Shown here: positions 31,375 through 46,151 of the stretch, one piece after another | How the letters are laid out: each line of letters starts with the position of its first letter | Position numbering within the stretch: position 1 is the stretch's first letter | DNA from: Erwinia persicina | GTDB taxonomy: Bacteria > Pseudomonadota > Gammaproteobacteria > Enterobacterales > Enterobacteriaceae | DNA length: 64,000 nucleotides | Assembly: GCF_014838825.1 (NCBI RefSeq) | Contig: NZ_JACYMO010000011.1 | Location: forward strand, 62,001-126,000 | Direction: 5' to 3' | Notes under the pieces: model-generated | What the model was told of the DNA's origin: nothing | The model's database searches: none | The model's input: the letters and a program-made list of their open reading frames with translations, nothing else | Program-made: the position numbers and the translations under genes

Positions 31375-32238
31375 ATGATCCGCAGTATGACCGCCTACGC
31401 CCGGCGCGAGACCAAAGGCGAATGGGGCAGCGCAGCCTGGGAGCTGCGTTCCGTCAACCAACGCTATCTCGAAACCTACATCCGCCTGCCAGAGCAATTC
31501 CGTGGCCTGGAGCCGGTGATCCGTGAACGCATCCGTAATCGCCTGACGCGCGGAAAAATCGAAGTCAATCTGCGGTTCGACGCAGATCCAAGCGCTCAGA
31601 GTTCGCTGGTGCTGAATGAGAAGCTGGCCATCCAGCTGGTGCAGGCGGCCAACTGGGTGAAAATGCAGAGCGATGAAGGTGAGATCAATCCCGTCGATAT
31701 TCTGCGCTGGCCAGGCGTGATGTCGGCTGAAGAGCAGGATCTGGATACCATTTCTGCCCAGTTGCTGACCGCGCTGGATGCTGCCATCGACGAGTTTATT
31801 ATCGCCCGTGAAAGCGAAGGTGCCGCACTGAAGACGCTGATCGAACAGCGTCTGGAAGGAGTCAGCGCCGAAGTAATTAAAGTGCGCACGCATATGCCAG
31901 ACGTACTGAAATGGCAGCGCGAACGTCTGCTTACGCGTCTGGAAGAGGCGCAGGTGCAGCTGGAAAATAACCGCCTGGAGCAGGAACTGGTAATGCTGGC
32001 ACAGCGTGTCGACGTGGCAGAAGAACTCGACCGCCTGGAAGCGCATGTCAAAGAAACCTATAACATCCTGAAGAAGAAGGAAGCGGTCGGCCGCCGTCTC
32101 GACTTTATGATGCAGGAGTTCAACCGCGAGTCGAACACCCTGGGGTCTAAATCCATTAATGCTGAAATCACCGCCTCAGCCATAGAGCTGAAAGTGCTGA
32201 TTGAGCAGATGAGAGAACAGATTCAGAACATCGAGTAA
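31375..32238 (+). CDS. yicC: YicC family endoribonuclease-like protein
   Basis: A 287-aa cytoplasmic protein, one of the most conserved of unknown-to-recently-assigned role (YicC/YloC family, reported as an endoribonuclease in other bacteria). It shows the N-terminal MIRSMTAYARRE and the C-terminal DUF1732 block EAVGRRLDFMMQEFNRESNT-LGSKS. A perfect -10 hexamer TATAAT is at 31338-31343, 32 bases before the start. Followed by a strong terminator. Confidence 0.93.
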   Translation: MIRSMTAYARRETKGEWGSAAWELRSVNQRYLETYIRLPEQFRGLEPVIRERIRNRLTRGKIEVNLRFDADPSAQSSLVLNEKLAIQLVQAANWVKMQSDEGEINPVDILRWPGVMSAEEQDLDTISAQLLTALDAAIDEFIIARESEGAALKTLIEQRLEGVSAEVIKVRTHMPDVLKWQRERLLTRLEEAQVQLENNRLEQELVMLAQRVDVAEELDRLEAHVKETYNILKKKEAVGRRLDFMMQEFNRESNTLGSKSINAEITASAIELKVLIEQMREQIQNIE

Positions 32239-32260: not shown

Positions 32261-32284
32261 AGCCCTGTTTACAGGGCTTTTTTT
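32261..32284. terminator. Intrinsic terminator of yicC, shared with the LysR gene
   Basis: The stem AGCCCTG / CAGGGCT with a short loop is preceded by an A run and followed by seven T, so it works in both directions. The stop codon of the convergent LysR gene (32269-32271) lies in the loop/stem, meaning the last LysR codons are part of this terminator. Confidence 0.88.
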
Positions 32285-33192
32285 ACGCTATTTTTCTCTG
32301 CCAGAGCCTCAACGCCGTTAATGACCGGCTGCCGTCGTTCATGCTTCCGCGTTGCCACGTAGACATCAATATTCAGTGACGACTGTGCATCGTCGGCCAG
32401 CGCGCGATAACATAATCCCTGCTGATTAAACGTACACATCGACTGCGGCATCAGCGTCATTCCTTTACCCCGTGCAATACTGGCAAGCAGCACAAGAGAG
32501 TCGTCCGGCTCTTTTATGCGCCTGAGCGTAAATGGAAGATGCTGAAAATAAGCCTCACATTTATCGTAATAGACGGGGTTAGCATGGCGGGGGAACCAGA
32601 ACAGCGGCAGATCAGCAATGTCAGCCAGCGCAACCTTCTCTTTTAAACTGGCAGGGTGAGAGGACGGCATTGCCAGCAGGAGTGGTTCGCGGTAGATCCA
32701 GTGAAAACTAAAATCCTGATCGCTGTGCAAACTCTTTTCACCGATGATGACCATATCCATCTGCCCCTTAGAGAGGGACTGCAGAAGCTGACTGGATGTC
32801 TGATTCTGTATCTCGATCTCTTCGGCGCACATCAGTTTTTTTATTTTGTCATTAACCTGAGGAATATTATCGAAACTGAGCGTGCGGGTAAGACCAATTC
32901 GCAGATGGGACGGCTCTTTATTCATTTCACGAACGAATTTGGTGAACTCATTAATCAGGTGCGTTGCTTTATCCACCAGCATGGCGCCAGCTTCTGTCAG
33001 GCGAACTTCATGGGTATTGCGGGTAAACAGCTCACGCCCCAGTGCATCTTCCAGGGATTTAATCTGCCGGGTTAACGGTGGCTGAGTCATTCGCAGCCGT
33101 TCAGCGGCACGTCTGAAGTTAAGCTCCTGAGCAACCACAAGAAAGCATTGCAACTGCTTTATGCTGGGTAACTTACTATTAATGCTGTCCAC
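32269..33192 (-). CDS. LysR-type regulator, divergent from the AfsA operon
   Basis: LysR-family transcription factor (307 aa). The N-terminal winged helix-turn-helix (about residues 12-70) includes FRRAAERLRMTQPPLTRQIK, and the C-terminal effector-binding domain starts near residue 95. It is transcribed away from the eight-gene operon at 33405-39320, the standard layout for a LysR activator of its neighbours, and the 212 bases between them contain a fitting inverted repeat. The last residues VKKAL are encoded by the yicC terminator hairpin, which suggests that the gene was joined to this site. Inducer unknown, possibly a precursor or product of the operon. Confidence 0.85.
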   Translation of the reverse strand: MDSINSKLPSIKQLQCFLVVAQELNFRRAAERLRMTQPPLTRQIKSLEDALGRELFTRNTHEVRLTEAGAMLVDKATHLINEFTKFVREMNKEPSHLRIGLTRTLSFDNIPQVNDKIKKLMCAEEIEIQNQTSSQLLQSLSKGQMDMVIIGEKSLHSDQDFSFHWIYREPLLLAMPSSHPASLKEKVALADIADLPLFWFPRHANPVYYDKCEAYFQHLPFTLRRIKEPDDSLVLLASIARGKGMTLMPQSMCTFNQQGLCYRALADDAQSSLNIDVYVATRKHERRQPVINGVEALAEKNSVKKAL

Positions 33193-33271
33193 AAATTCTC
33201 CGCAGCTGTTGGGGCATTATTCAGTTTTTGGCATCGATTTGATGGTTAACATATTATCTCACCTGAAAGTC

Positions 33272-33298
33272 TTTGTAAATTAATCAATATGTTACAAA
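33272..33298. promoter_or_regulatory. Candidate operator between LysR gene and AfsA operon
   Basis: TTTGTAA (33272-33278) and TTACAAA (33292-33298) form a perfect 7-bp inverted repeat with a 13-base spacer, and a third TTACAAA occurs at 33328-33334, 36 bases further on the same face. LysR regulators typically use one dyad for anchoring and a second, downstream half site for activation. The region is AT-rich, so chance similarity is possible. No confident -35/-10 pair was found. Confidence 0.5.
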
Positions 33299-33404
33299 CC
33301 AAAACCTCTTGTGATACCTAAACCGTATTACAAAATTAACAATTCTCATAAAAAATCCAGATGATATTTTTATTCCTGAAATTCGCCCACTAAGGATAAC
33401 TATC

Positions 33405-34016
33405 ATGTCTGCTAAATATGTTTTAATTTCCCGCTTCCCACTCAAAAACAACGTAAACCCTTCTGCAATTACCGGACTAAAATCCACTTCAGAGAAAAAA
33501 TATTTTTTCTCTGAGGAAAATGATATCCATGAACTTCTTGAACTTCGTTCATTTAACGATATAAAAGAGATTCCGTGGGTAGAGGGTGAGCTTGAGGCCG
33601 CCTTCCATAATATGGCATCGCTTCTTTCAGGTGATATTCGCCGCGAGTTGGTGAAATATGTAGAAGCCCCTATCGAAACTGATAAGTCGCTACCTGACAC
33701 TAAATATATTCAACTTCGTCACGTTGAAGTTCCTGCTGATAATTATTCGCAATATCGCCACTGGCGTGATGAGACCATTTTCAATGTTGTTCGCGACAAC
33801 AGAGATAAAATATCCAGCTTTGAAGCTTTTCACTCTCTCATTAGTGGTCTGCCAGGCGTTATGTTTATCTCATCATTTAATGGTGACAAAGATGAGTATA
33901 AAGAGGCATTCACAAACACTCGTTATCAGAACATTATCCAACAAGCCGGTGATAATTATATTACCGGAGGCAATGAAGGTCTTTATACTCGTATCTACAG
34001 CGCCTTTTCTTGTTGA
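33405..34016 (+). CDS. Unrecognised 203-aa protein, first gene of the AfsA operon
   Basis: Not recognised. No signal peptide or membrane segment. The two halves look alike in layout: about residues 1-88 start with KYVLISRFPLK and residues about 98-203 with KYIQLRHVEVP, each followed by helical stretches and a closing strand (VKYVEAP; GVMFISSF, TRIYSAF). This resembles a tandem ferredoxin-like (dimeric alpha/beta barrel, ABM/NIPSNAP-like) fold, which is a guess. Such folds often occur in small monooxygenases or cyclases of secondary metabolism. AT-rich; AAGGA ribosome site before ATG; gap of 12 bases to the next gene. Confidence 0.7.
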   Translation: MSAKYVLISRFPLKNNVNPSAITGLKSTSEKKYFFSEENDIHELLELRSFNDIKEIPWVEGELEAAFHNMASLLSGDIRRELVKYVEAPIETDKSLPDTKYIQLRHVEVPADNYSQYRHWRDETIFNVVRDNRDKISSFEAFHSLISGLPGVMFISSFNGDKDEYKEAFTNTRYQNIIQQAGDNYITGGNEGLYTRIYSAFSC

Positions 34017-34028
34017 AAGTGAGATTAT

Positions 34029-34805
34029 ATGAAAATTAAGAAAATTTTTGTTGTCGGTGATAAATTTAGTGAATTTACAAATGGTAAAAATGTTTTAACC
34101 ATTTCACAATTGGAACTGCTTACACAAATACCGGCTAAAATAATCGATACTGAACATGAAATCATTGTTGGCCAGGGTGTCAGAGATGACTTTGCAAGAA
34201 AAGTCATCAAAAACCAGAAGCGTAATGAGATACATGATAACAAATTAAACATCATCTCATTAGAAAAACTGGCAGAGGCAAAGAAGAACTGTTACGCACA
34301 TAAAAAAATAAAACACAATGTGCTGATTGGTGCTGCTGAAAAAGTAGAACATAACGATAAGTTATACGCGCTTCCCTTATTGATTGATGAGCGCTGCGAA
34401 CTGATGGCCGACCATCAAACCGGGCAACATATTCAGGGCATGCTTTTAGTGGAAGCATGCAGGCAAACCTTTATTGCCGTAACAGAAGAGTTCTTCTTTA
34501 GCGGCAATAAAAACCGCTATTACGTGATAAACGGCATGGCTATTAATTTCAGCAATTTCCTTTTTCCGCTGCCCGCAGTAATGCATTACGAAATTCTGGA
34601 GCAGGATATTAATGATCGCCGCGCACGTTTTAAAGCGCAAATTCGTGTTACTCAACACGAGACGGCATGCGCGACGATGGATGTATCATTTACAGTTTAT
34701 CCTTCCGAGGTGATCAGCAGCAAAGAGAGTGAACTGGCAATGACAGCGACACAAAATGCCTTCATTGCTGCACAGCAGACCCCGGTAGAGGCTATCCATG
34801 CCTGA
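34029..34805 (+). CDS. AfsA-type hotdog domain protein
   Basis: A 258-aa protein. Residues about 90-226 read as an AfsA hotdog domain: HKKIKHNVLIG at the start, then ADHQTGQHIQGMLLVEACRQ (127-146), the segment corresponding to the family's D-H-x(n)-G-M-L-L-x-E-A-x-R-Q motif, then NFSNFLFPLPA. AfsA of Streptomyces transfers a beta-ketoacyl group from a carrier to dihydroxyacetone phosphate, the committing step of butyrolactone, butenolide and furan signals. Classical AfsA has two hotdog repeats; here only one is clear and the first 85 residues (KIFVVGDKFSEF...) are unrecognised. Very AT-rich. Central gene of the operon; exact substrate unknown. Confidence 0.7.
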   Translation: MKIKKIFVVGDKFSEFTNGKNVLTISQLELLTQIPAKIIDTEHEIIVGQGVRDDFARKVIKNQKRNEIHDNKLNIISLEKLAEAKKNCYAHKKIKHNVLIGAAEKVEHNDKLYALPLLIDERCELMADHQTGQHIQGMLLVEACRQTFIAVTEEFFFSGNKNRYYVINGMAINFSNFLFPLPAVMHYEILEQDINDRRARFKAQIRVTQHETACATMDVSFTVYPSEVISSKESELAMTATQNAFIAAQQTPVEAIHA

Positions 34806-35628
34806 AAACAGCCGGAAGTATGAACTGGCTGCCACCACGCAGGGGCCGCTTTACCCCCCTGCGGAGGTGATGGATAGTCAGGGTAACTTTGTTGTAGAGG
34901 GTATGATACCCGGTCAACACGGTGTTCGATGGGGTCGCGCCCTCGTTTCACCACAGAGTCCACTACCCGCTTTTGGCCAGGTCGCACCCTACACGATAGT
35001 GCGCTTTCTGGAAAAAGTATCGCCTCAAGAACTTGAAGAGATTGTGTTATTCACACTGCCTTTACCGATCCCTTTAAATAACTACAATATGTTATTCGCA
35101 CCTGAGCAGCGACCAAAGGCCAACTCAGAGCAGCGTGATAGTCTTCCTCTGCATCAGGGACATATCTCTGATTACCGCGACAGCGATGGCAGGCGGAAAA
35201 TCTCTCCAGTCACATTACGTCACTGGCTGGCTGCCAGAGGAGAACTGGTTGTCAGTGTCGCTGGCGACAGGAAAAGTGCCCGGTTCGAGTTTGTGTTCCA
35301 TCATCTGGTGCCGAACAGTCTGTATACCATAATGAGTCTGCGCGAGCGCGACCTGGACCCGGAAAATACCAGCAGACCCGGTCCACTAGGCATACCGAAT
35401 GTATTTATTACTGATGAATCAGGCCACGCCAGTTTCTGGGCAGAATTGCCTAATCCATTTCCAAAACGTCACCACCACAGCAATCGTATTATTAATGTCG
35501 TGGTGCTTTATATGAGTACTCAACAAAGTTATGGCGGCGCTATCGGTTTTTATGGACTGGGCGGTGATATACACGCTCAATTAAAACTTAAATTTCGCTC
35601 ATTTGATGAATTTACGACGACCCCCTGA
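34798..35628 (+). CDS. Unrecognised 276-aa protein of the AfsA operon
   Basis: Not recognised. No signal peptide, so probably cytoplasmic. The second half (about residues 150-270) is strand-rich: VVSVAGDRKSARFEFVFHHL, LGIPNVFITDESGHASFWAE, NRIINVVVLYMSTQQSYGG, giving the impression of a beta-sandwich. Residues 1-60 contain QGPLYPPAEVMDSQGNFVVE and HGVRWGRALV. The start overlaps the AfsA-like gene by eight bases, so it is translated with it and probably acts with it. It could be a dedicated cyclase or binding partner, but this is a guess from position. Confidence 0.65.
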   Translation: MPENSRKYELAATTQGPLYPPAEVMDSQGNFVVEGMIPGQHGVRWGRALVSPQSPLPAFGQVAPYTIVRFLEKVSPQELEEIVLFTLPLPIPLNNYNMLFAPEQRPKANSEQRDSLPLHQGHISDYRDSDGRRKISPVTLRHWLAARGELVVSVAGDRKSARFEFVFHHLVPNSLYTIMSLRERDLDPENTSRPGPLGIPNVFITDESGHASFWAELPNPFPKRHHHSNRIINVVVLYMSTQQSYGGAIGFYGLGGDIHAQLKLKFRSFDEFTTTP

Positions 35629-35638
35629 GGAAAAAACA

Positions 35639-35869
35639 ATGCCTTTTATTCACATTTCAACCTGGAAAATGAGTAATGAAGCACAGGTACAAAATATGAT
35701 GGAAGCCGTCACACTCGCCGTCCACCAAACCAGTGGGGCACCACTGGATAAAATATCGGTAGTTATTAATGAAGTTTTACCTTCACGTTGGAGTGATGCC
35801 GGCATTTGCGGCAATGATCCTCAATTCCCAATAAAAAGCAGAAGAAAAAATTACAAGGAGTCAGTGTGA
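35639..35869 (+). CDS. 4-oxalocrotonate tautomerase-family protein
   Basis: Small tautomerase (76 aa) with the catalytic amino-terminal proline directly after Met (MPFIHISTWK) and the typical APLDKISVVINEV strand. It has GAGGAAAAAACA before ATG 35639; the longer frame upstream belongs to the end of the previous gene. Members catalyse keto-enol tautomerisation and related steps, such as decarboxylation or hydration of unsaturated keto acids. Here it could act on a beta-keto ester or butenolide intermediate. Overlaps the phosphatase gene by GTGA. Confidence 0.8.
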   Translation: MPFIHISTWKMSNEAQVQNMMEAVTLAVHQTSGAPLDKISVVINEVLPSRWSDAGICGNDPQFPIKSRRKNYKESV

Positions 35870-36516
35870 ATGAAGTCGCTGCTTTCTTTGATGTTGATGA
35901 AACCATCATAAACTTTAAAAGCATGTTTAGTTTTTATGAATACTGGTGTAAAGAAAAAGGACTTTTAACTCAATATAATGAATATATCACCAAATTTAAG
36001 CAAGACATGCAAAATGGAAAGCGACGAGAGCTGCTAAATAAGGATTATTACCAGCAATTTACTCATATCCCTCTCGATGCGCTGAATAAGTCTGGCCAGG
36101 AATGGTTCCAGCAATGCCTTAATAAAGACATATTTATTAACGAAACAGTTTCAGAGCTACGCTTTCATCAGAAAAATGGAATAACACCCGTTTTTGTTTC
36201 CGGCTCGATGTTGCCTCTTCTGCAGCCTATTGCAGATTACTTAGGCGTTAAAAACATTATTTGCGCCCCCTTAATAATCAATGAAAAGGGTACGCTAACA
36301 GGGAAGATTGGCACGCCACAAACAATTGGAAGCGGAAAAAAAGAGGCCATACTTTCCTTCTGTGATGATAACGATATTCGGGCTGAAGATTGCTATGCCT
36401 ATGGTGATGATATCTCCGACATACCGATGCTGGAAGCAACAGGACATCCAGTTTGCGTAGGGAAGAACATCAGGCTAATGGATTATGCGGCACTGAAAGG
36501 CTGGCGCAACATTTAA
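35866..36516 (+). CDS. HAD-IB family phosphatase of the AfsA operon
   Basis: HAD-superfamily hydrolase (216 aa), SerB/HAD-IB type. Motif I is FFDVDETI (nucleophile Asp9, acid/base Asp11), motif II VSGSM, a lysine in SGKKEAI, and motif IV YGDDISDIPML. In Streptomyces furan and butyrolactone routes a HAD phosphatase (for example MmfP) removes the phosphate that the AfsA product inherits from dihydroxyacetone phosphate. A phosphatase two genes after an AfsA-type gene therefore fits the same chemistry. The start is GTG, overlapping the tautomerase stop. AT-rich like the genes before it. Confidence 0.8.
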   Translation: MNEVAAFFDVDETIINFKSMFSFYEYWCKEKGLLTQYNEYITKFKQDMQNGKRRELLNKDYYQQFTHIPLDALNKSGQEWFQQCLNKDIFINETVSELRFHQKNGITPVFVSGSMLPLLQPIADYLGVKNIICAPLIINEKGTLTGKIGTPQTIGSGKKEAILSFCDDNDIRAEDCYAYGDDISDIPMLEATGHPVCVGKNIRLMDYAALKGWRNI

Positions 36517-36536
36517 AACTTAACAAGGAAATTATC

Positions 36537-37748
36537 ATGGTCTCTGATATAAAAGAGTCAACGATGTCCATCCGCACATGGGTGGCATTATTTATTCTGG
36601 CTTTATCCACTTTTACCATTGTAACGACAGAGCTGGCTCCGGTAGGTTTACTCACGCCTATCGCCAACGGGCTTCATGCCTCTGAATCGGAGATTGGTAT
36701 GACCGTATCACTCTATGCCTGGATTGGCGCATTGAGTGCACTCTTTGCCTCGGTATTTTTGGGTAATTTCCCCAAAAAGATCCTCCTCCTGTCACTCACT
36801 GTTGTCCTGTTCATTTCGAACGTGTGGTCTGCAACAGTGAGCTCTTATGAGGTATTGCTGGCGGCACGTGTCGTCGGCGCACTGGCCCACGGCGCATTTT
36901 GGGCAATGATTGGAGCCACGGCGGTGGCTATGGTTCCAACTAAGTACCTCGGAGTAGCCACTTCCATTGTGTTTGGCGGTGTTTCGGCCGCCAGCGTGTT
37001 TGGCGTGCCTCTCTCAAACTATATTGGTCTGAACTTCGGTTGGCGTCAGGCCTTCTGGCTGATGTCAATTCTGAGCGTGGTTGCCTTTGTTGGCATGATG
37101 TGGGTTGTCCCGAATATCAGCGTCAAAAGTACGATTGGTCTGGGCGCACTGAAAAATGTTTTACGCTCCTCCACATTGTGGAAAATCTACTCCGCGACGT
37201 TGCTGGCTATTACCGCGCACTTTGCTGCCTTCACCTTTATTGAACCCTGGCTGCAAACCCAGCCAGCACTATCCGCAGCTTTCATACCGGTCGTGTTATT
37301 CATTTACGGCATCGCTGGTCTGGCCGGAAACTTCCTCACCGGTATGCTGATCGATAAATACCTTAAAATGACCGTCTCTCTCTCCGTTCTGCTGATTGGT
37401 ATCGTACTGGTCGCGCTGGGTCTTGAGGCTCAGTCATTGTCCCGACCTTTGGTACTGGCCGCGGTCATGCTATGGGGAATTGCCGTTTCAGGCATCTTTG
37501 TTGGTTTCCAGACATGGGTACTCCGTGTGGCTGGAGAAGAAGCGTTTCCTGCCTCAGCAATTTATGTCTCTTTCTTTAACGCCGCAATCGGTATCGGGGC
37601 CTCTGTTGGTGCCTGGATGGTTTCTGCCCTGTCACTTCCGGCACTTTTTGTGACCGCAGGCGTGGCTATCGCTCTTTCCTTCCTCCTCGTTGTGTTCATT
37701 CCGTCCGACAAGCCTGTTACGAAAAAAATGATGGAGAATATTGCATGA
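36537..37748 (+). CDS. MFS efflux transporter (DHA1, AraJ/SotB-like)
   Basis: Twelve-segment major facilitator protein (403 aa) of the DHA1 drug/sugar efflux group. The early TTELAPVGLLTPIANGL segment and GVPLSNYIGLNFGWRQAFW are characteristic. ATG 36537 has AAGGAA before it; the longer frame upstream overlaps the phosphatase. Inside the operon it probably exports the product or gives self-resistance. From here to the right end of the operon base composition returns to that of the chromosome. ATGA overlap with the next gene. Confidence 0.87.
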   Translation: MVSDIKESTMSIRTWVALFILALSTFTIVTTELAPVGLLTPIANGLHASESEIGMTVSLYAWIGALSALFASVFLGNFPKKILLLSLTVVLFISNVWSATVSSYEVLLAARVVGALAHGAFWAMIGATAVAMVPTKYLGVATSIVFGGVSAASVFGVPLSNYIGLNFGWRQAFWLMSILSVVAFVGMMWVVPNISVKSTIGLGALKNVLRSSTLWKIYSATLLAITAHFAAFTFIEPWLQTQPALSAAFIPVVLFIYGIAGLAGNFLTGMLIDKYLKMTVSLSVLLIGIVLVALGLEAQSLSRPLVLAAVMLWGIAVSGIFVGFQTWVLRVAGEEAFPASAIYVSFFNAAIGIGASVGAWMVSALSLPALFVTAGVAIALSFLLVVFIPSDKPVTKKMMENIA

Positions 37749-38152
37749 ACCACGATGCTGAACTGACCCGTTATGGCCGTGAAATTATGGACCGCCTCGA
37801 AGACGGGCTCGCCGATTCGGTGACATCCCGGCTGGCAGAACTGGATGCAGACCTGCCAAATCTGATTACTGATTATGCTTTTGGGGCCATCGTTGGGCGC
37901 CCCGGTCTGGACCTCAAAACACGCGAAATGTTAACGGTGGCCTCGCTGATAACATCCGGTAATGCGCAGCCTCAGCTTGAGTTGCACATGCGCGGCGCAC
38001 TGAATGTCGGTGTCACACCGCAAGAGTTGCTTGAGATAGTCATCCAGATGGCGGTATACGCCGGTGTTCCTGCCTGTATGAATGGCTTGACGGCCTATCG
38101 CGCAGCAACTGCACGCTTCTCTTCTCAGAAGAGTGGAGAAAGAAATGAATGA
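37745..38152 (+). CDS. Carboxymuconolactone decarboxylase-family protein
   Basis: All-helical CMD/AhpD-like protein (135 aa). The core block LTVASLITSGNAQPQLELHMRG-ALNVGVTPQELLEIVIQMAVYAG holds the family's glutamine/glutamate-histidine site, and there is no CxxC pair, so it is the decarboxylase-like rather than the peroxiredoxin-like type. It may decarboxylate or lactonise an intermediate. Overlaps the exporter gene by four bases and the thiolase gene by eight. Confidence 0.82.
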   Translation: MNHDAELTRYGREIMDRLEDGLADSVTSRLAELDADLPNLITDYAFGAIVGRPGLDLKTREMLTVASLITSGNAQPQLELHMRGALNVGVTPQELLEIVIQMAVYAGVPACMNGLTAYRAATARFSSQKSGERNE

Positions 38153-39320
38153 GATTGTGGTTGTTTCGGCGAAAAGAACGGCAACAGGCGCATTTATGGG
38201 CGGTTTGGCCGAACATTCGGCCACGTCGTTGGGTAGCGTAGTGATTCAGGCGCTGCTGGCCGACAGTAAATTACCCGCAGAGGATGTGGACCAGGTCATT
38301 ATGGGTCAGGTTCTGACTGCTGGTTGCGGCCAGAATCCCGCCAGGCAGTCAGCATTAAATGCCGGCCTTCCTGTCGCGGTCGCTGCGCTAACAATTAACA
38401 AAGTGTGTGGTTCAGGATTGAAAGCCGTACACCTTGGCATGCAGGCACTCATCTGTGGGGAGGCCGAGTTTGTGATTGCCGGGGGCCAGGAAAGCATGTC
38501 GAATGCCCCACATATCCTGTCAGGCTCCAGGCAGGGCATTCGGCTGGGTGACGGTGCGCTACAGGACAGTCTGATTGCTGACGGTCTGTGGGATGCGTTC
38601 CATCATTACCATATGGGCGTGACCGCTGAGAATGTCGCTGCTGACTATAATATTTCCCGTTCAATGCAGGATGAGTTCGCCCTGAGCTCTCACCGCAAGG
38701 CGTTAAAAGCTCAGGAAGCAGGACTGTTCTTTGAAGAAATTGTTCCCGTAAAATGGGTGACCAGGAAAGGCGAACCACGGAGTGTGATTCAGGATGAATG
38801 TCCTCGTCATACCAGCATTGAAAAGCTGTCTGGCTTAAAAACCGTATTTAAAAAAGAGGGAACAGTGACAGCGGGTAACGCTTCGTCTCTGAATGATGGT
38901 GCAGCTGCAGTGCTGCTTTGTCGTCGGGAAACTGCAGAAAAACGGGGAATGGCTGTTCTCGCCTCACTCGGTGCTTTCTCCAATGCCGGTATTGAGCCCG
39001 AACTGATGGGGGCTGCACCGATTAACGCTATTGAAATGAATATCAAGAGCATGAACTGGTCGCCTCAGGAGGTCGATATTCTGGAGTCAAATGAGGCTTT
39101 TGCTGCCCAGGCATTGGCTGTAGCACACGCTTGTGGCGTCCCCTCAGAGCGAATTAACCCACACGGTGGCGCGATCGCTCTGGGGCATGCCATTGGTGCG
39201 TCCGGCTGCCGTATTCTGGTCACGTTAATTCATGGATTAATTCGTGAAGACCTTCATAAAGGTATCGCTGCGCTATGTATCGGCGGGGGGGAAGGTGTCG
39301 CACTCAGCGTAACGCGTTAA
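38145..39320 (+). CDS. Acetyl-CoA acetyltransferase-type thiolase
   Basis: Biosynthetic-type thiolase (391 aa). The triad is complete: Cys88 in NKVCGSGLKA, His348 in GGAIALGHAIGASG, and Cys378 in LCIGGGEG, at the numbers known from classical degradative/biosynthetic thiolases. It would condense two acetyl-CoA, or an acyl-CoA with acetyl-CoA, to a beta-ketoacyl-CoA, exactly the kind of acyl group an AfsA-type enzyme uses. ATG 38145 follows GGAGAAAGAA; a GTG four codons upstream is unlikely. Last gene of the operon, followed by a terminator. A plain acetoacetyl-CoA housekeeping role cannot be excluded. Confidence 0.88.
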   Translation: MNEIVVVSAKRTATGAFMGGLAEHSATSLGSVVIQALLADSKLPAEDVDQVIMGQVLTAGCGQNPARQSALNAGLPVAVAALTINKVCGSGLKAVHLGMQALICGEAEFVIAGGQESMSNAPHILSGSRQGIRLGDGALQDSLIADGLWDAFHHYHMGVTAENVAADYNISRSMQDEFALSSHRKALKAQEAGLFFEEIVPVKWVTRKGEPRSVIQDECPRHTSIEKLSGLKTVFKKEGTVTAGNASSLNDGAAAVLLCRRETAEKRGMAVLASLGAFSNAGIEPELMGAAPINAIEMNIKSMNWSPQEVDILESNEAFAAQALAVAHACGVPSERINPHGGAIALGHAIGASGCRILVTLIHGLIREDLHKGIAALCIGGGEGVALSVTR

Positions 39321-39350
39321 CATGCGCACAGAAAAAATACTCAAAAAAAA

Positions 39351-39377
39351 CCCGCCGGATAGTTGGCGGGTTTTTTT
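39351..39377. terminator. Bidirectional terminator after the AfsA operon
   Basis: The stem CCCGCC / GGCGGG with an eight-base loop is preceded by eight A and followed by seven T. It ends the operon rightward and the aldo/keto reductase gene leftward, so these are separate units. Confidence 0.88.
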
Positions 39378-39394: not shown

Positions 39395-40393
39395 TTAAGC
39401 ATTAACGCCTTTCATCCCTTCTTCGGAATAACGGCTACCTTTAATCGAAATCGTTCTGTGAATATTATTCAGCGCCACGACATCTGACGCATCCAGTACC
39501 AGATCGGCAGCGGCAGCATTCTCTGCCAGGTAATTTACATTCTTGGTTCCGGGGACAGGCACCGTTTTATCATACTGCGCCAGTAACCATGCCAGTGCAA
39601 TCTGCCCCGACGTGCAGTGGTACTTTTGCGTGAGCGGTGCAATGGCGTCTAACAGCTTAAGATTATGATCGATATTATCCTGCTGAAAACGCGCGTTGTT
39701 CCGGCGGAAGTCTCCTTCCGGGAAGTCCGCGTTCTTCAGATATTTACCCGTCAGAAAACCCCGACCCAGTGGAGAATAAGGCACTAAGCCAATCCCCAGC
39801 GACTTCACCATCGGCAAAATGCTCTCTTCAATATCGCGCGTCCACAGCGAGTACTCGGTTTGCAGCGCCGTTACTGGAAACACGGCGTGCGCTTTTTGCA
39901 GGGTGGTAGCAGAGACTTCGCACAGCCCGACATGACCGATTTTCCCCTCCTGCACCAGGCGGGACAAACAGCGCATGCTCTCTTCGATATCAGCGTCTTT
40001 ATCCACGCGGTGAAGATAGAAAAGATCTATTTTTTCCACGCCCAGACGCTGTAAAGATTCATGGCAGCAGCGAACAATATAATCCGGGTGGTTATTTATT
40101 TTTCGCGCATAGGCGTCATCAGGATCGCGGTCGATGCCACATTTAGTGGCCACTTTAAACTGACTGCGCGTATGAGGATCAAGCTGGGCTAAAAAATGGC
40201 CGATAAGCCGCTCGTTATGACCCCGGCCGTATAAATTTGCACTATCAATGAAGTTTACGCCCGCATCAGCCAGTTGGCCGAGCAGTGCCAGAGACTGGCT
40301 ATCGTCTGTTTCACCGTAAAATTCACTCAGCCCCATCGCACCGTAGCCGATAGCACTCACGCTCAGATCCTGACCCAGCTGTCTTGTTTTCAT
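39395..40393 (-). CDS. Aldo/keto reductase
   Basis: NADPH-dependent aldo/keto reductase (332 aa). It has GAMGLSEFYGE, the catalytic Asp/Tyr segment FIDSANLYGRGHNE, the HRVDKD segment with the catalytic histidine, and the C-terminal PVPGTKNVNYLAEN cofactor-binding part. AKR11/13-like, close to YajO/YakC-type enzymes. Convergent with the AfsA operon and separated from it by a terminator, so not part of it, although a reductase step would be needed to make a saturated lactone. Substrate unknown. Confidence 0.88.
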   Translation of the reverse strand: MKTRQLGQDLSVSAIGYGAMGLSEFYGETDDSQSLALLGQLADAGVNFIDSANLYGRGHNERLIGHFLAQLDPHTRSQFKVATKCGIDRDPDDAYARKINNHPDYIVRCCHESLQRLGVEKIDLFYLHRVDKDADIEESMRCLSRLVQEGKIGHVGLCEVSATTLQKAHAVFPVTALQTEYSLWTRDIEESILPMVKSLGIGLVPYSPLGRGFLTGKYLKNADFPEGDFRRNNARFQQDNIDHNLKLLDAIAPLTQKYHCTSGQIALAWLLAQYDKTVPVPGTKNVNYLAENAAAADLVLDASDVVALNNIHRTISIKGSRYSEEGMKGVNA

Positions 40394-40564
40394 AACCCCT
40401 CCATAAAATGAAACAGTATTCTTTCATGATTGAGTTATGCGCTGAATTTCAAACCAGGCGATACCTTTTGGGTATCATCGCTGCGGGCAAACAGCGGTAG
40501 GAAGAAAGTCGCTGACAGGGTAAACTATTCCCTTACTTTATTATGGATTTACTTGAGGATGATA

Positions 40565-40903: not shown

Positions 40904-41055
40904 TCCCGGCCAGTAGCCGCAGCGCTACTGGCCCCCTCTTTTCCCACCTGAGTTGCCCTCACGTCTGAAACTGCTAGTATCACAAGGCACAAACTTCATG
41001 TGTTAAGGGCGTGCGGCGCTCAACGGACCGGCTCAATATTTCCCCAGGGGGCAGA

Positions 41056-42417: not shown

Positions 42418-42500
42418 GTCGTCAGGCTTCGCCGATCGCCGGTGAATGCCTGTACGCACTTAATTCGGTTCGAGAGCAACAGACCTGTGACTGCCCGACC

Positions 42501-42525
42501 GGGGGGGAAACTCCCCGCCTTTTTA
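42501..42525 (+). terminator. Terminator after the YcaD-like gene; rest of gap empty
   Basis: A G-run paired with CCCCGCC around an AAACT loop, followed by TTTTT, gives an intrinsic terminator with one bulge. The remainder of the 305-base gap to 42722 shows no gene or clear site. Confidence 0.6.
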
Positions 42526-42722
42526 ATGGGCCACCCCGCCGTGAGTTCAGGGCGATAGGGGGACGATGGTTAAACGGTACAACGCGGTGATGGTACCAGG
42601 TACTGATCAAATAACAGGCCAGCAGGAAAACCGCTGTTTCATCCCTTGAACGCTAATGCAGTCCTGAGACGCTTACTGTCAAATAAAGAGAGTAAATGGA
42701 AAAAAGTAAGACGCCAGTAAAC

Positions 42723-43367
42723 TTAAATTAATCCCTGAGCATAGGCATAACGAATTAACTCTATGTTTGAAGAGACTCCCAGCCGACGCATCGCGTTATA
42801 TTTTTGCGTTGATATGGTACTGATCGTTCGATTCTGACGATGAGCTATTTCTGATAGCGTATAGCCCGATGAAAAGAGCCTAATCACCTCTAACTCTTTT
42901 GGAGTAAGCGGACTTCCTTTTTCCTGACCTTTTACCAGATAATTCTTAATGTGACTGAATGACGATGAGAAATAACATCCCGACTGCGTGGTAATGTGTT
43001 GGCACGCCTGTACTGTTTCATCAACCGGGTCCGCTTTGCTAACAATGGCCTTAACGCCATAATCACACGCCCCTCTGAGGATCGCCGTATTATTCTGCGA
43101 CGTGAGCAGAACAATTTTCATCGCCGGGAAACGGCTATGCAAAGCACGAAGCTTGGCAAAACCATCGATAGCCGAACGGTCTGAACTCAATGAAAAATCC
43201 GTAATAGCGATATCTGTTGGTGTGGAGGCTAAAACATTCAGTAAACTCTTTCCACATACTGTTTCGCTGGTAATAGAAAAACGATCGCTCCTGGCGAACA
43301 GTACCTTGAGTGAATTAATGATGTGCGGGTGGTCGTCAGAGATTGCCACTGTGTATCTGTTATACAT
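42723..43367 (-). CDS. Orphan response regulator, RcsB/NarL-like
   Basis: Two-domain response regulator (214 aa). The receiver has the acidic pair Asp11-Asp12 in ISDDHPH, a phosphoacceptor Asp57 in ITDFSLS, and lysine in IVSKAD. The C-terminal LuxR-type helix-turn-helix (about residues 145-205) reads LTPKELEVIRLFSSGYTLSEIA. Layout and several residues recall RcsB. No histidine kinase is nearby. ATG 43367 follows GGAGGATGT; the longer frame upstream lies in AT-rich non-coding DNA. Target and partner unknown; might respond to the Rcs phosphorelay or form heterodimers with RcsB. Confidence 0.85.
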   Translation of the reverse strand: MYNRYTVAISDDHPHIINSLKVLFARSDRFSITSETVCGKSLLNVLASTPTDIAITDFSLSSDRSAIDGFAKLRALHSRFPAMKIVLLTSQNNTAILRGACDYGVKAIVSKADPVDETVQACQHITTQSGCYFSSSFSHIKNYLVKGQEKGSPLTPKELEVIRLFSSGYTLSEIAHRQNRTISTISTQKYNAMRRLGVSSNIELIRYAYAQGLI

Positions 43368-43782
43368 ACATCCTCCATGTGGGTGTTCATCCCGAATCAA
43401 TACACGTTCTATTAAAACCAGAATCCAAAAAATTATCTTAATTGCGCGACGTACGGAATGGCAAGCTTTTGCGTTAAATAAACACACATGACTCACAAGT
43501 GAGACTATAAAAAATATAAAATAAAAGCGTTAAGACTGGCCTCTTTTATAAAAATTCCGACACCTTTAGATTAAAAGCGACTAATAACAGGTACACTTAA
43601 AAACACACGTTGCTCATAATTTATTTTCCGAATGAAATATCGCGAAAAAACCGATCATGGCCTGAAGCGGCGTATCTAAGGCCTTTAAGCCCGCATCGTG
43701 GTGAAAATCAGCCGGAGAAAATTTCTGTCGCCGTTTGGGCGCGAACCCCTTAGCATTGCCGCCAGGTTTTGAGGAGATGGCT
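43368..43782. other. AT-rich divergent region between response regulator and yicG
   Basis: A 415-base gap without a credible gene. It is markedly AT-rich around 43490-43600, with a small palindrome CTCACAAGTGAG at 43491-43503. Likely holds the promoters of the response regulator and of yicG and is a good place for H-NS-type silencing. No defined promoter could be fixed. Confidence 0.5.

Positions 43783-46151
<2,369 letters not shown>

Follow-up and report, generated by a model that had tools for sequence, protein, structure and literature searches.

A 64-kb stretch of Erwinia persicina DNA (the window) carries, between yicC (31375-32238) and a gene of the major facilitator superfamily (MFS) at 41011, a compact set of genes that, judged by its proteins and their order, is the enterobacterial form of a type of cluster that has been linked to killing between bacteria, with an added thiolase. 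By analogy with the homologous cluster of Ruegeria pomeroyi, we predict with moderate confidence that the Erwinia locus produces a small diffusible antibacterial molecule, exports it and protects the cell from it. The open reading frames of the window place one LysR gene on the minus strand, divergent from eight tightly packed genes on the plus strand that are separated by gaps of 12, 10 and 20 bases or joined by overlaps of 8, 4, 4 and 8 bases. This bears out the layout described in the first-pass annotation, a LysR gene facing eight genes with gaps of at most 20 bases or overlaps and a terminator at the end. The gene content of the interval given there, 32269-39377, also stands, yet its end does not, since an aldo/keto reductase (AKR) gene and the box in its promoter, which by their conserved placement belong to the locus, extend it to 40475. 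The features are as follows.

32269-33192, minus strand: LysR-type regulator (P0001), PF00126 and PF03466, proposed product sensor
33314-33328, no strand: LysR-type box ATAC-N7-GTAT in the LysR/operon promoter region, at the same aligned place in relatives
33405-34016, plus strand: 203-amino-acid (203-aa) protein with a tandem ferredoxin-like (dimeric alpha+beta barrel type) fold, homologue of SPOA0343 (number from gene order)
34029-34805, plus strand: AfsA-family (phosphorylated butenolide synthase-like) hotdog protein, PF03756, homologue of SPOA0342
34798-35628, plus strand: 276-aa conserved protein of no Pfam family, homologue of SPOA0341 (number from gene order)
35639-35869, plus strand: 4-oxalocrotonate tautomerase-family protein, PF01361
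35866-36516, plus strand: HAD-IB phosphatase, TIGR01490
36537-37748, plus strand: MFS exporter, PF07690, proposed for export and immunity
37745-38152, plus strand: CMD-family protein, PF02627, proposed for immunity or detoxification
38145-39320, plus strand: thiolase, of the acetoacetyl-CoA-forming type by its best models (acetyl-CoA C-acetyltransferase)
39344-39377, no strand: terminator-like hairpin with a 13-pair stem and T-runs on both sides, between the operon and the convergent reductase gene
39395-40393, minus strand: aldo/keto reductase AKR (P0010), convergent, proposed self-protection enzyme
40461-40475, no strand: second LysR-type box ATAC-N7-GTAT, 82 bases before the AKR start codon

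The precedent is the 'GBL' cluster of R. pomeroyi DSS-3 (approximately SPOA0339-SPOA0344), to which a published study mapped six non-killer transposon mutants, three in afsA, two in SPOA0341 and one in the regulator gene SPOA0344 (PMC7426152). Killing is diffusible and density dependent; SPOA0341 and SPOA0344 mutants also lose immunity, whereas afsA mutants remain immune when next to the parent. Transcription of the remaining cluster genes, apart from the regulator, depends on afsA, and only 21 genes respond to it, 10 of them inside the cluster (PMC7426152). The authors left undecided whether the molecule is an antimicrobial or a signal, and they noted homologues of the cluster mainly in gammaproteobacteria and actinobacteria (PMC7426152); the existence of such clusters is therefore not new. 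Of the two roles proposed earlier for the window locus, signal or antibiotic, this nearest experimental precedent points to killing with immunity rather than to a hormone (PMC7426152). In R. pomeroyi the genes for the 203-aa protein, AfsA, the 276-aa protein, the tautomerase and the HAD phosphatase form one unit, in the order of the window, MFS, CMD and AKR form a second, and the LysR gene lies between the two units (the SPOA numbers of the 203-aa, 276-aa and LysR products were deduced from their order relative to SPOA0342, afsA). Identity to the R. pomeroyi products (L046) is 46.5% for the 203-aa protein, 37.8% for AfsA, 56.1% for the 276-aa protein, 50% for the tautomerase, 43% for HAD, 44% for MFS, 47% for CMD and 51% for AKR. 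The window differs by its added thiolase, by having MFS and CMD inside the synthesis operon, and by an AKR gene that converges on the operon at its far end.

Profile searches uphold the main enzyme assignments made earlier from the letters. The product of 34029-34805, for which a search against PF03756 had been proposed, is an AfsA-type protein, scoring 47.3 bits in Pfam (cut-off 24; E 2.7e-12) over residues 91-222; the family is matched by 16/16 aligned AfsA members, the window's included, and H129, H134, E142 and R145 are present in 36/36 aligned rows. The HAD phosphatase reaches 130.4 bits against TIGR01490 (cut-off 98.3) and keeps D9, D11, S112, K158 and D181 in 34/34 rows, and the tautomerase reaches 25.9 bits against PF01361 (cut-off 22), with Pro2 in 17/17. 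For the thiolase the score against TIGR01930 is 420.4 bits (cut-off 240.55) and C88, N316, H348 and C378 are kept in 13/13 rows; it is best matched by acetyl-CoA acetyltransferase models (PRK05656 at 523 bits, its cut-off of 688 not being reached), and the nearest solved chains are a thiolase (8gqj) and acetyl-CoA acetyltransferases. Such an enzyme could supply a beta-ketoacyl unit, as had been suggested. The four thiolase residues, D9 and D11 of HAD and Pro2 of the tautomerase are catalytic residues, and all are intact. The exporter (PF07690) and the LysR regulator (PF00126 with PF03466) are likewise present, CMD matches PF02627 and has no CxxC, and D50, Y55, K84 and H128 of AKR occur in 26/26 rows. 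The 203-aa and 276-aa proteins match no Pfam family at E up to 1, and NCBIfam and PDB sequence searches did not place them; fold comparison gives the 203-aa protein a tandem ferredoxin-like fold, common to putative monooxygenases and other enzymes, which we take to be that of the dimeric alpha+beta barrel superfamily.

We propose that the thiolase would make acetoacetyl-CoA, that the AfsA-family enzyme would condense this with dihydroxyacetone phosphate, yielding a phosphorylated C7 butenolide, and that the HAD enzyme would take off the phosphate. The 203-aa and 276-aa proteins and the tautomerase may then convert the butenolide to the final, probably electrophilic carbonyl compound. This product would bind LysR and switch on the operon and the AKR gene via the ATAC-N7-GTAT boxes; MFS would export it, and CMD and AKR would disarm what leaks back. 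The thiolase type found here, together with the ketoacyl synthase III (KSIII) and acyl carrier protein (ACP) genes of a Streptomyces version, suggests an acetoacetyl thioester and dihydroxyacetone phosphate as the substrates. A product-sensing regulator that induces immunity would explain why afsA mutants of R. pomeroyi are immune and SPOA0341 and SPOA0344 mutants are not. In our reading AKR, CMD and MFS serve self-protection, controlled by a LysR that senses the product, and are not ring-closing enzymes; the earlier assignment of CMD to a ring-closing or decarboxylating biosynthetic step is not supported, given that CMD travels with MFS and AKR and outlives the synthesis genes in non-producers.

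The same nine families occur in identical order in 9/9 loci (L012-L020, from Erwinia, Enterobacter, Lelliottia, Cedecea, Buttiauxella, Serratia and Ewingella), an arrangement that is thus not due to chance. In all nine an AKR orthologue lies 3' of the thiolase gene, within about 0.1-2.3 kb, and this conserved order and a common LysR-type box tie AKR to the locus. Among 36 genomes of the same genus the 276-aa gene is found in 7 and AKR of at least 73% identity in 9, that is, in 7/7 genomes with the 276-aa gene versus 2/29 without it; the two AKR-only genomes (G311, G312) have a LysR-AKR pair with a broken MFS gene or no operon gene between. The box ATAC-N7-GTAT, which we take to fit the T-N11-A form of LysR boxes, has two exact matches in the 64 kb, one per promoter (33314 and 40461), where 0.34 would be expected; two or more matches arose in 4/100 shuffles of the window. 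A longer box pattern occurs four times in the whole genome, twice at this locus and otherwise on contigs 1 and 3, while a reversed control occurs once. Upstream of AKR, a box of at least 7/8 bases lies 81-86 bases before the gene in 18/19 loci (8/8 in seven loci), and this score is reached in each of the 7 loci that lack synthesis genes or hold a decayed set. The near-duplicate loci L012, L015, L070, L073 and L084 are excluded from this box comparison and from the trees described below.

What is kept when synthesis genes are missing points the same way. A sample of 295 genomes of the family, apparently the same ones in each search, holds the 276-aa gene in 2 (E up to 1e-20), the 203-aa gene in 3 (1e-5), AKR in 6 (1e-120), MFS in 6 (1e-100) and LysR of at least 47% identity in 13, a count that leaves out three genomes (G002, G017, G163; 39-41% identity) as likely paralogues. 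LysR proteins of 47-100% identity stand beside full or remnant loci in Enterobacterales. The 13 genomes comprise 2 whole sets, 1 decayed Photorhabdus-type set (G138) and 10 without detected synthesis genes, and nine of these ten non-producers keep AKR, MFS and/or CMD: LysR is accompanied by AKR in 4, by MFS in 2, by MFS and CMD in 2, by CMD in 1 and by nothing in 1. MFS hence stands beside LysR without detected synthesis genes in 4/295 genomes, and CMD beside LysR in 3 non-producers. The ten gave no 203-aa, 276-aa or AfsA match genome-wide at the limits used, and no HAD, tautomerase or thiolase match at the locus (one of these loci, L091, is a contig of 7 kb); the searches for CMD, HAD, tautomerase and thiolase covered the loci, not whole genomes. 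A box of 7-8/8 bases, for which there is no shuffle control, separates LysR from the retained MFS or CMD gene in L092, L093, L094 and L096, and no such box lies there in L091. On a plasmid of Enterobacter hormaechei (L048, 6893-11578) a decayed set is seen, in which the 203-aa, HAD and thiolase genes are shortened and LysR, MFS and AKR are whole; no AfsA, 276-aa or CMD match was found in it. The AKR remnants were first found with AKR as query, and because of this bias later searches used MFS, LysR and the 203-aa protein in a family sample of equal size (295). MFS, CMD and AKR travel as a separate unit in R. pomeroyi, Shimia and an Alteromonadales metagenome-assembled genome (MAG). Full and remnant forms are intermixed on the LysR tree, where well-supported branches call for at least 7 switches between producers and the others; on the AKR tree, three remnants fall within a supported clade that also holds seven producers. 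Long branches and several forks of weak support occur in both trees, and the LysR tree does not include the R. pomeroyi protein. We infer that these genes are a self-protection module that survives loss of synthesis, perhaps since neighbours make the compound.

Comparison with neighbouring genes shows horizontal movement of the set. The YicC proteins of the window and of G308, taken as E. rhapontici, are 97% identical, but the AfsA proteins only 69% and the 276-aa proteins 66%, the same distance as to Cedecea (68% and 67%), and G308 carries the set on a different contig from its yicC site. The idea that the set is ordinary genus core was rejected, as the 276-aa gene was not found in 29/36 same-genus genomes and the sites differ. 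The genome is close to E. persicina: AfsA matches that of strain NBRC 102418 (L012) at 100% identity, HAD is 92% identical and its neighbours 97-100%, and a 14.7-kb stretch has 95.4% DNA identity to G304. A search of an E. coli collection gave no near-DNA match. The G+C content is 38-44% in five of the six 1-kb intervals starting at 33.0-35.5 kb (50% in the sixth) and 53-57% in those starting at 28.0-31.5 kb. A further dip, to about 45-47%, is seen at 42500-43999, just past the MFS gene at 41011.

A peptide-pattern scan of genome contigs with the AfsA protein, not exhaustive, gave at least 34 loci; the 276-aa protein is also present in 23 of 34. Three Photorhabdus loci read 203-aa, AfsA, 276-aa, HAD, CMD, thiolase, with short-chain-reductase-like and drug/metabolite-transporter-like genes nearby, and a related pair comes after HAD in two loci of Bartonella and is located within the cluster of a MAG from a gammaproteobacterium. 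A plasmid of Streptomyces YIM 121038 carries KSIII, ACP, TauD, AfsA, HAD, 203-aa, 276-aa and AKR genes consecutively and gives no thiolase match.

Streptomyces A-factor/gamma-butyrolactone systems (AfsA, ScbA, BarX) resemble the locus in the AfsA hotdog domain, a phosphatase and a nearby reductase. They differ from it in that the window has one AfsA stretch, below the ScbA/BarX equivalog level, adds the 203-aa, 276-aa, tautomerase and CMD proteins, and has LysR in place of an ArpA-type receptor, which belongs to Streptomyces A-factor systems. The AfsA protein misses the ScbA/BarX hormone-synthase equivalog NF041195 (22.3 bits against a cut-off of 200), and a TetR-type (ArpA-like) receptor is absent from the nine window proteins scanned, the rest of the genome not having been searched. 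The methylenomycin cluster of S. coelicolor SCP1 (MmyA/MmyC/MmyD) differs in that a pentulose is proposed there and dihydroxyacetone phosphate here; MmyD has been likened to AvrD. The AfsA-like domain of the gladiostatin polyketide synthase (PKS) of Burkholderia gladioli condenses 3-ketothioesters with dihydroxyacetone phosphate in vitro (PMC7756379); it ends a large PKS, whereas the window AfsA is stand-alone beside a thiolase. Searches for work on this operon in enterobacteria, Erwinia included, which covered part of the literature, brought up only the R. pomeroyi study and generic mentions of clusters of the butyrolactone or A-factor-like kind in Xenorhabdus and Pseudomonas; passages of a second R. 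pomeroyi paper said nothing on the product. Within the same coverage, no description of the probable LysR-controlled immunity kit as a unit was found.

Rather than a weapon, the locus might make a butyrolactone or butenolide quorum signal read by LysR, with any killing done by something else that the signal regulates and AKR as a biosynthetic ketone reductase, which we regard as rather unlikely. AfsA enzymes are known above all for their part in Streptomyces signalling molecules (PMC7756379), and the R. pomeroyi afsA gene is required for its own cluster's transcription; AfsA-HAD-AKR neighbourhoods in Pseudomonas also speak for a signal. Against it, the 21 afsA-responsive genes, 10 of them in the cluster, leave little else to regulate, and the R. 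pomeroyi cluster carries immunity (PMC7426152). The hormone-synthase equivalog is missed by far, and the AKR, MFS or CMD kept by non-producers is something that a signal alone does not need. Less probable still is that LysR with AKR, CMD and MFS is an older general detoxification locus beside which the operon landed, the non-producers being ancestral. LysR-AKR pairs without any operon-gene match (L067, L080-L083) and the position of the producers' AKR, outside the operon on the opposite strand, would suit such a history. It sits poorly with the decayed operon remains between LysR and AKR in L048 and L066, with remnants that differ in kind (AKR, MFS, MFS and CMD, CMD) and intermingle with producers on the LysR tree, with the three remnant AKRs inside a supported clade with seven producers, and with the same three genes accompanying the cluster in roseobacters and the Alteromonadales MAG. 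The CMD, 4-oxalocrotonate tautomerase and thiolase families occur in beta-ketoadipate-like pathways, and this is what favours catabolism of an aromatic-like acid by such a route. That reading, which had earlier been said not to explain AfsA and the phosphatase and which does not explain the set, is close to refuted and was rejected on the PcaC (77.9 vs 155.7 bits) and PcaF (341.6 vs 597) cut-offs; the tautomerase equivalogs are also under cut-off, scanning of the nine proteins shows no ring-cleaving family, CMD is retained in the absence of the other genes, and the homologous cluster is linked to killing.

Several results weigh against the antibacterial, self-protecting locus that we prefer. 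The thiolase stays below the specific acetyl-CoA acetyltransferase, PhaA and BktB cut-offs and a thiolase match is found in none of the loci L025-L045, so that the acetoacetyl unit is a guess. The fold match of the 276-aa protein to a Cu,Zn superoxide dismutase-like Greek-key barrel falls under the caution line. AKR, MFS and tautomerase have no match in the Photorhabdus loci, and AKR adjoins AfsA-HAD in four Pseudomonas loci without the 276-aa gene, neighbourhoods that suit a biosynthetic reductase at least as well. The LysR proteins of the window and R. pomeroyi are about 37% identical and fall in different similarity groups (F6, F10), so the R. pomeroyi mutant data transfer by analogy only. 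As for the boxes, single shuffle tests give 0 to 0.073 upstream of AKR, and most relatives have a weak box in the operon promoter (0.007 to 0.89). The box was not found in distant lineages: in ten loci, of which eight are distant and two from Photorhabdus, the best matches 5' of the 203-aa gene reach 4-7/8 bases with no shuffle control, and these low scores add no box support beyond the 19-locus comparison. LysR is kept alone in one non-producer (L095), the whole and remnant labels on the LysR tree are hardly more clustered than in shuffles (103/500 as low), and at the yicC site of G308 (L088, 8790-9010) only scraps are left of both LysR (107 bp) and AKR (75 bp). Retention of LysR with AKR could also reflect an older detoxification pair into which the operon inserted.

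The R. pomeroyi paper left undecided the molecule, its role as signal or weapon and the immunity genes (PMC7426152). The enterobacterial comparison gives candidates for immunity in AKR, CMD and MFS, a candidate sensor in LysR with its DNA box, and likely substrates in an acetoacetyl thioester and dihydroxyacetone phosphate. More tentatively, and at somewhat less than even chances, these loci may represent a widespread class of very small antibiotics made from the two substrates in Erwinia, Enterobacter, Serratia, Photorhabdus, Bartonella, roseobacters and Streptomyces. The product would be both weapon and LysR inducer, the LysR-driven AKR/CMD/MFS kit would be the immunity, and orphan kits would mark resistant non-producers, commoner than producers in the enterobacterial sample. 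If true, a C7 antibiotic chemistry would be common to unrelated bacteria, with its protection genes spread in non-producers, which would matter to natural-product chemists and microbial ecologists.

Terminator-like sites number 10 in the scan as a whole and 10.4 in shuffles; as the scan does no better than shuffles, the hairpin at 39344-39377 rests on its own look and place. Among the AfsA relatives, the AfsA-HAD pair occurs without the 276-aa gene in Pseudomonas (L029, L031, L034, L039) and myxobacteria (L037, L044). Weak AfsA-like matches (25-27%) in 334-aa frames of four other family genomes (G081, G152, G199, G274; L007-L009, L011) probably represent another AfsA-type family. Near the cluster of an Alteromonadales MAG (L027, 4784-8935) lies a second, more distant protein related to the 276-aa one (27%), and after it come two metallo-beta-lactamase-domain proteins. 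A beta-propeller-like protein is encoded beside the cluster in L025, L028 and L030 (Celeribacter, Burkholderiaceae and Leptothrix), and the L028 copy matches the ScyD/ScyE model.

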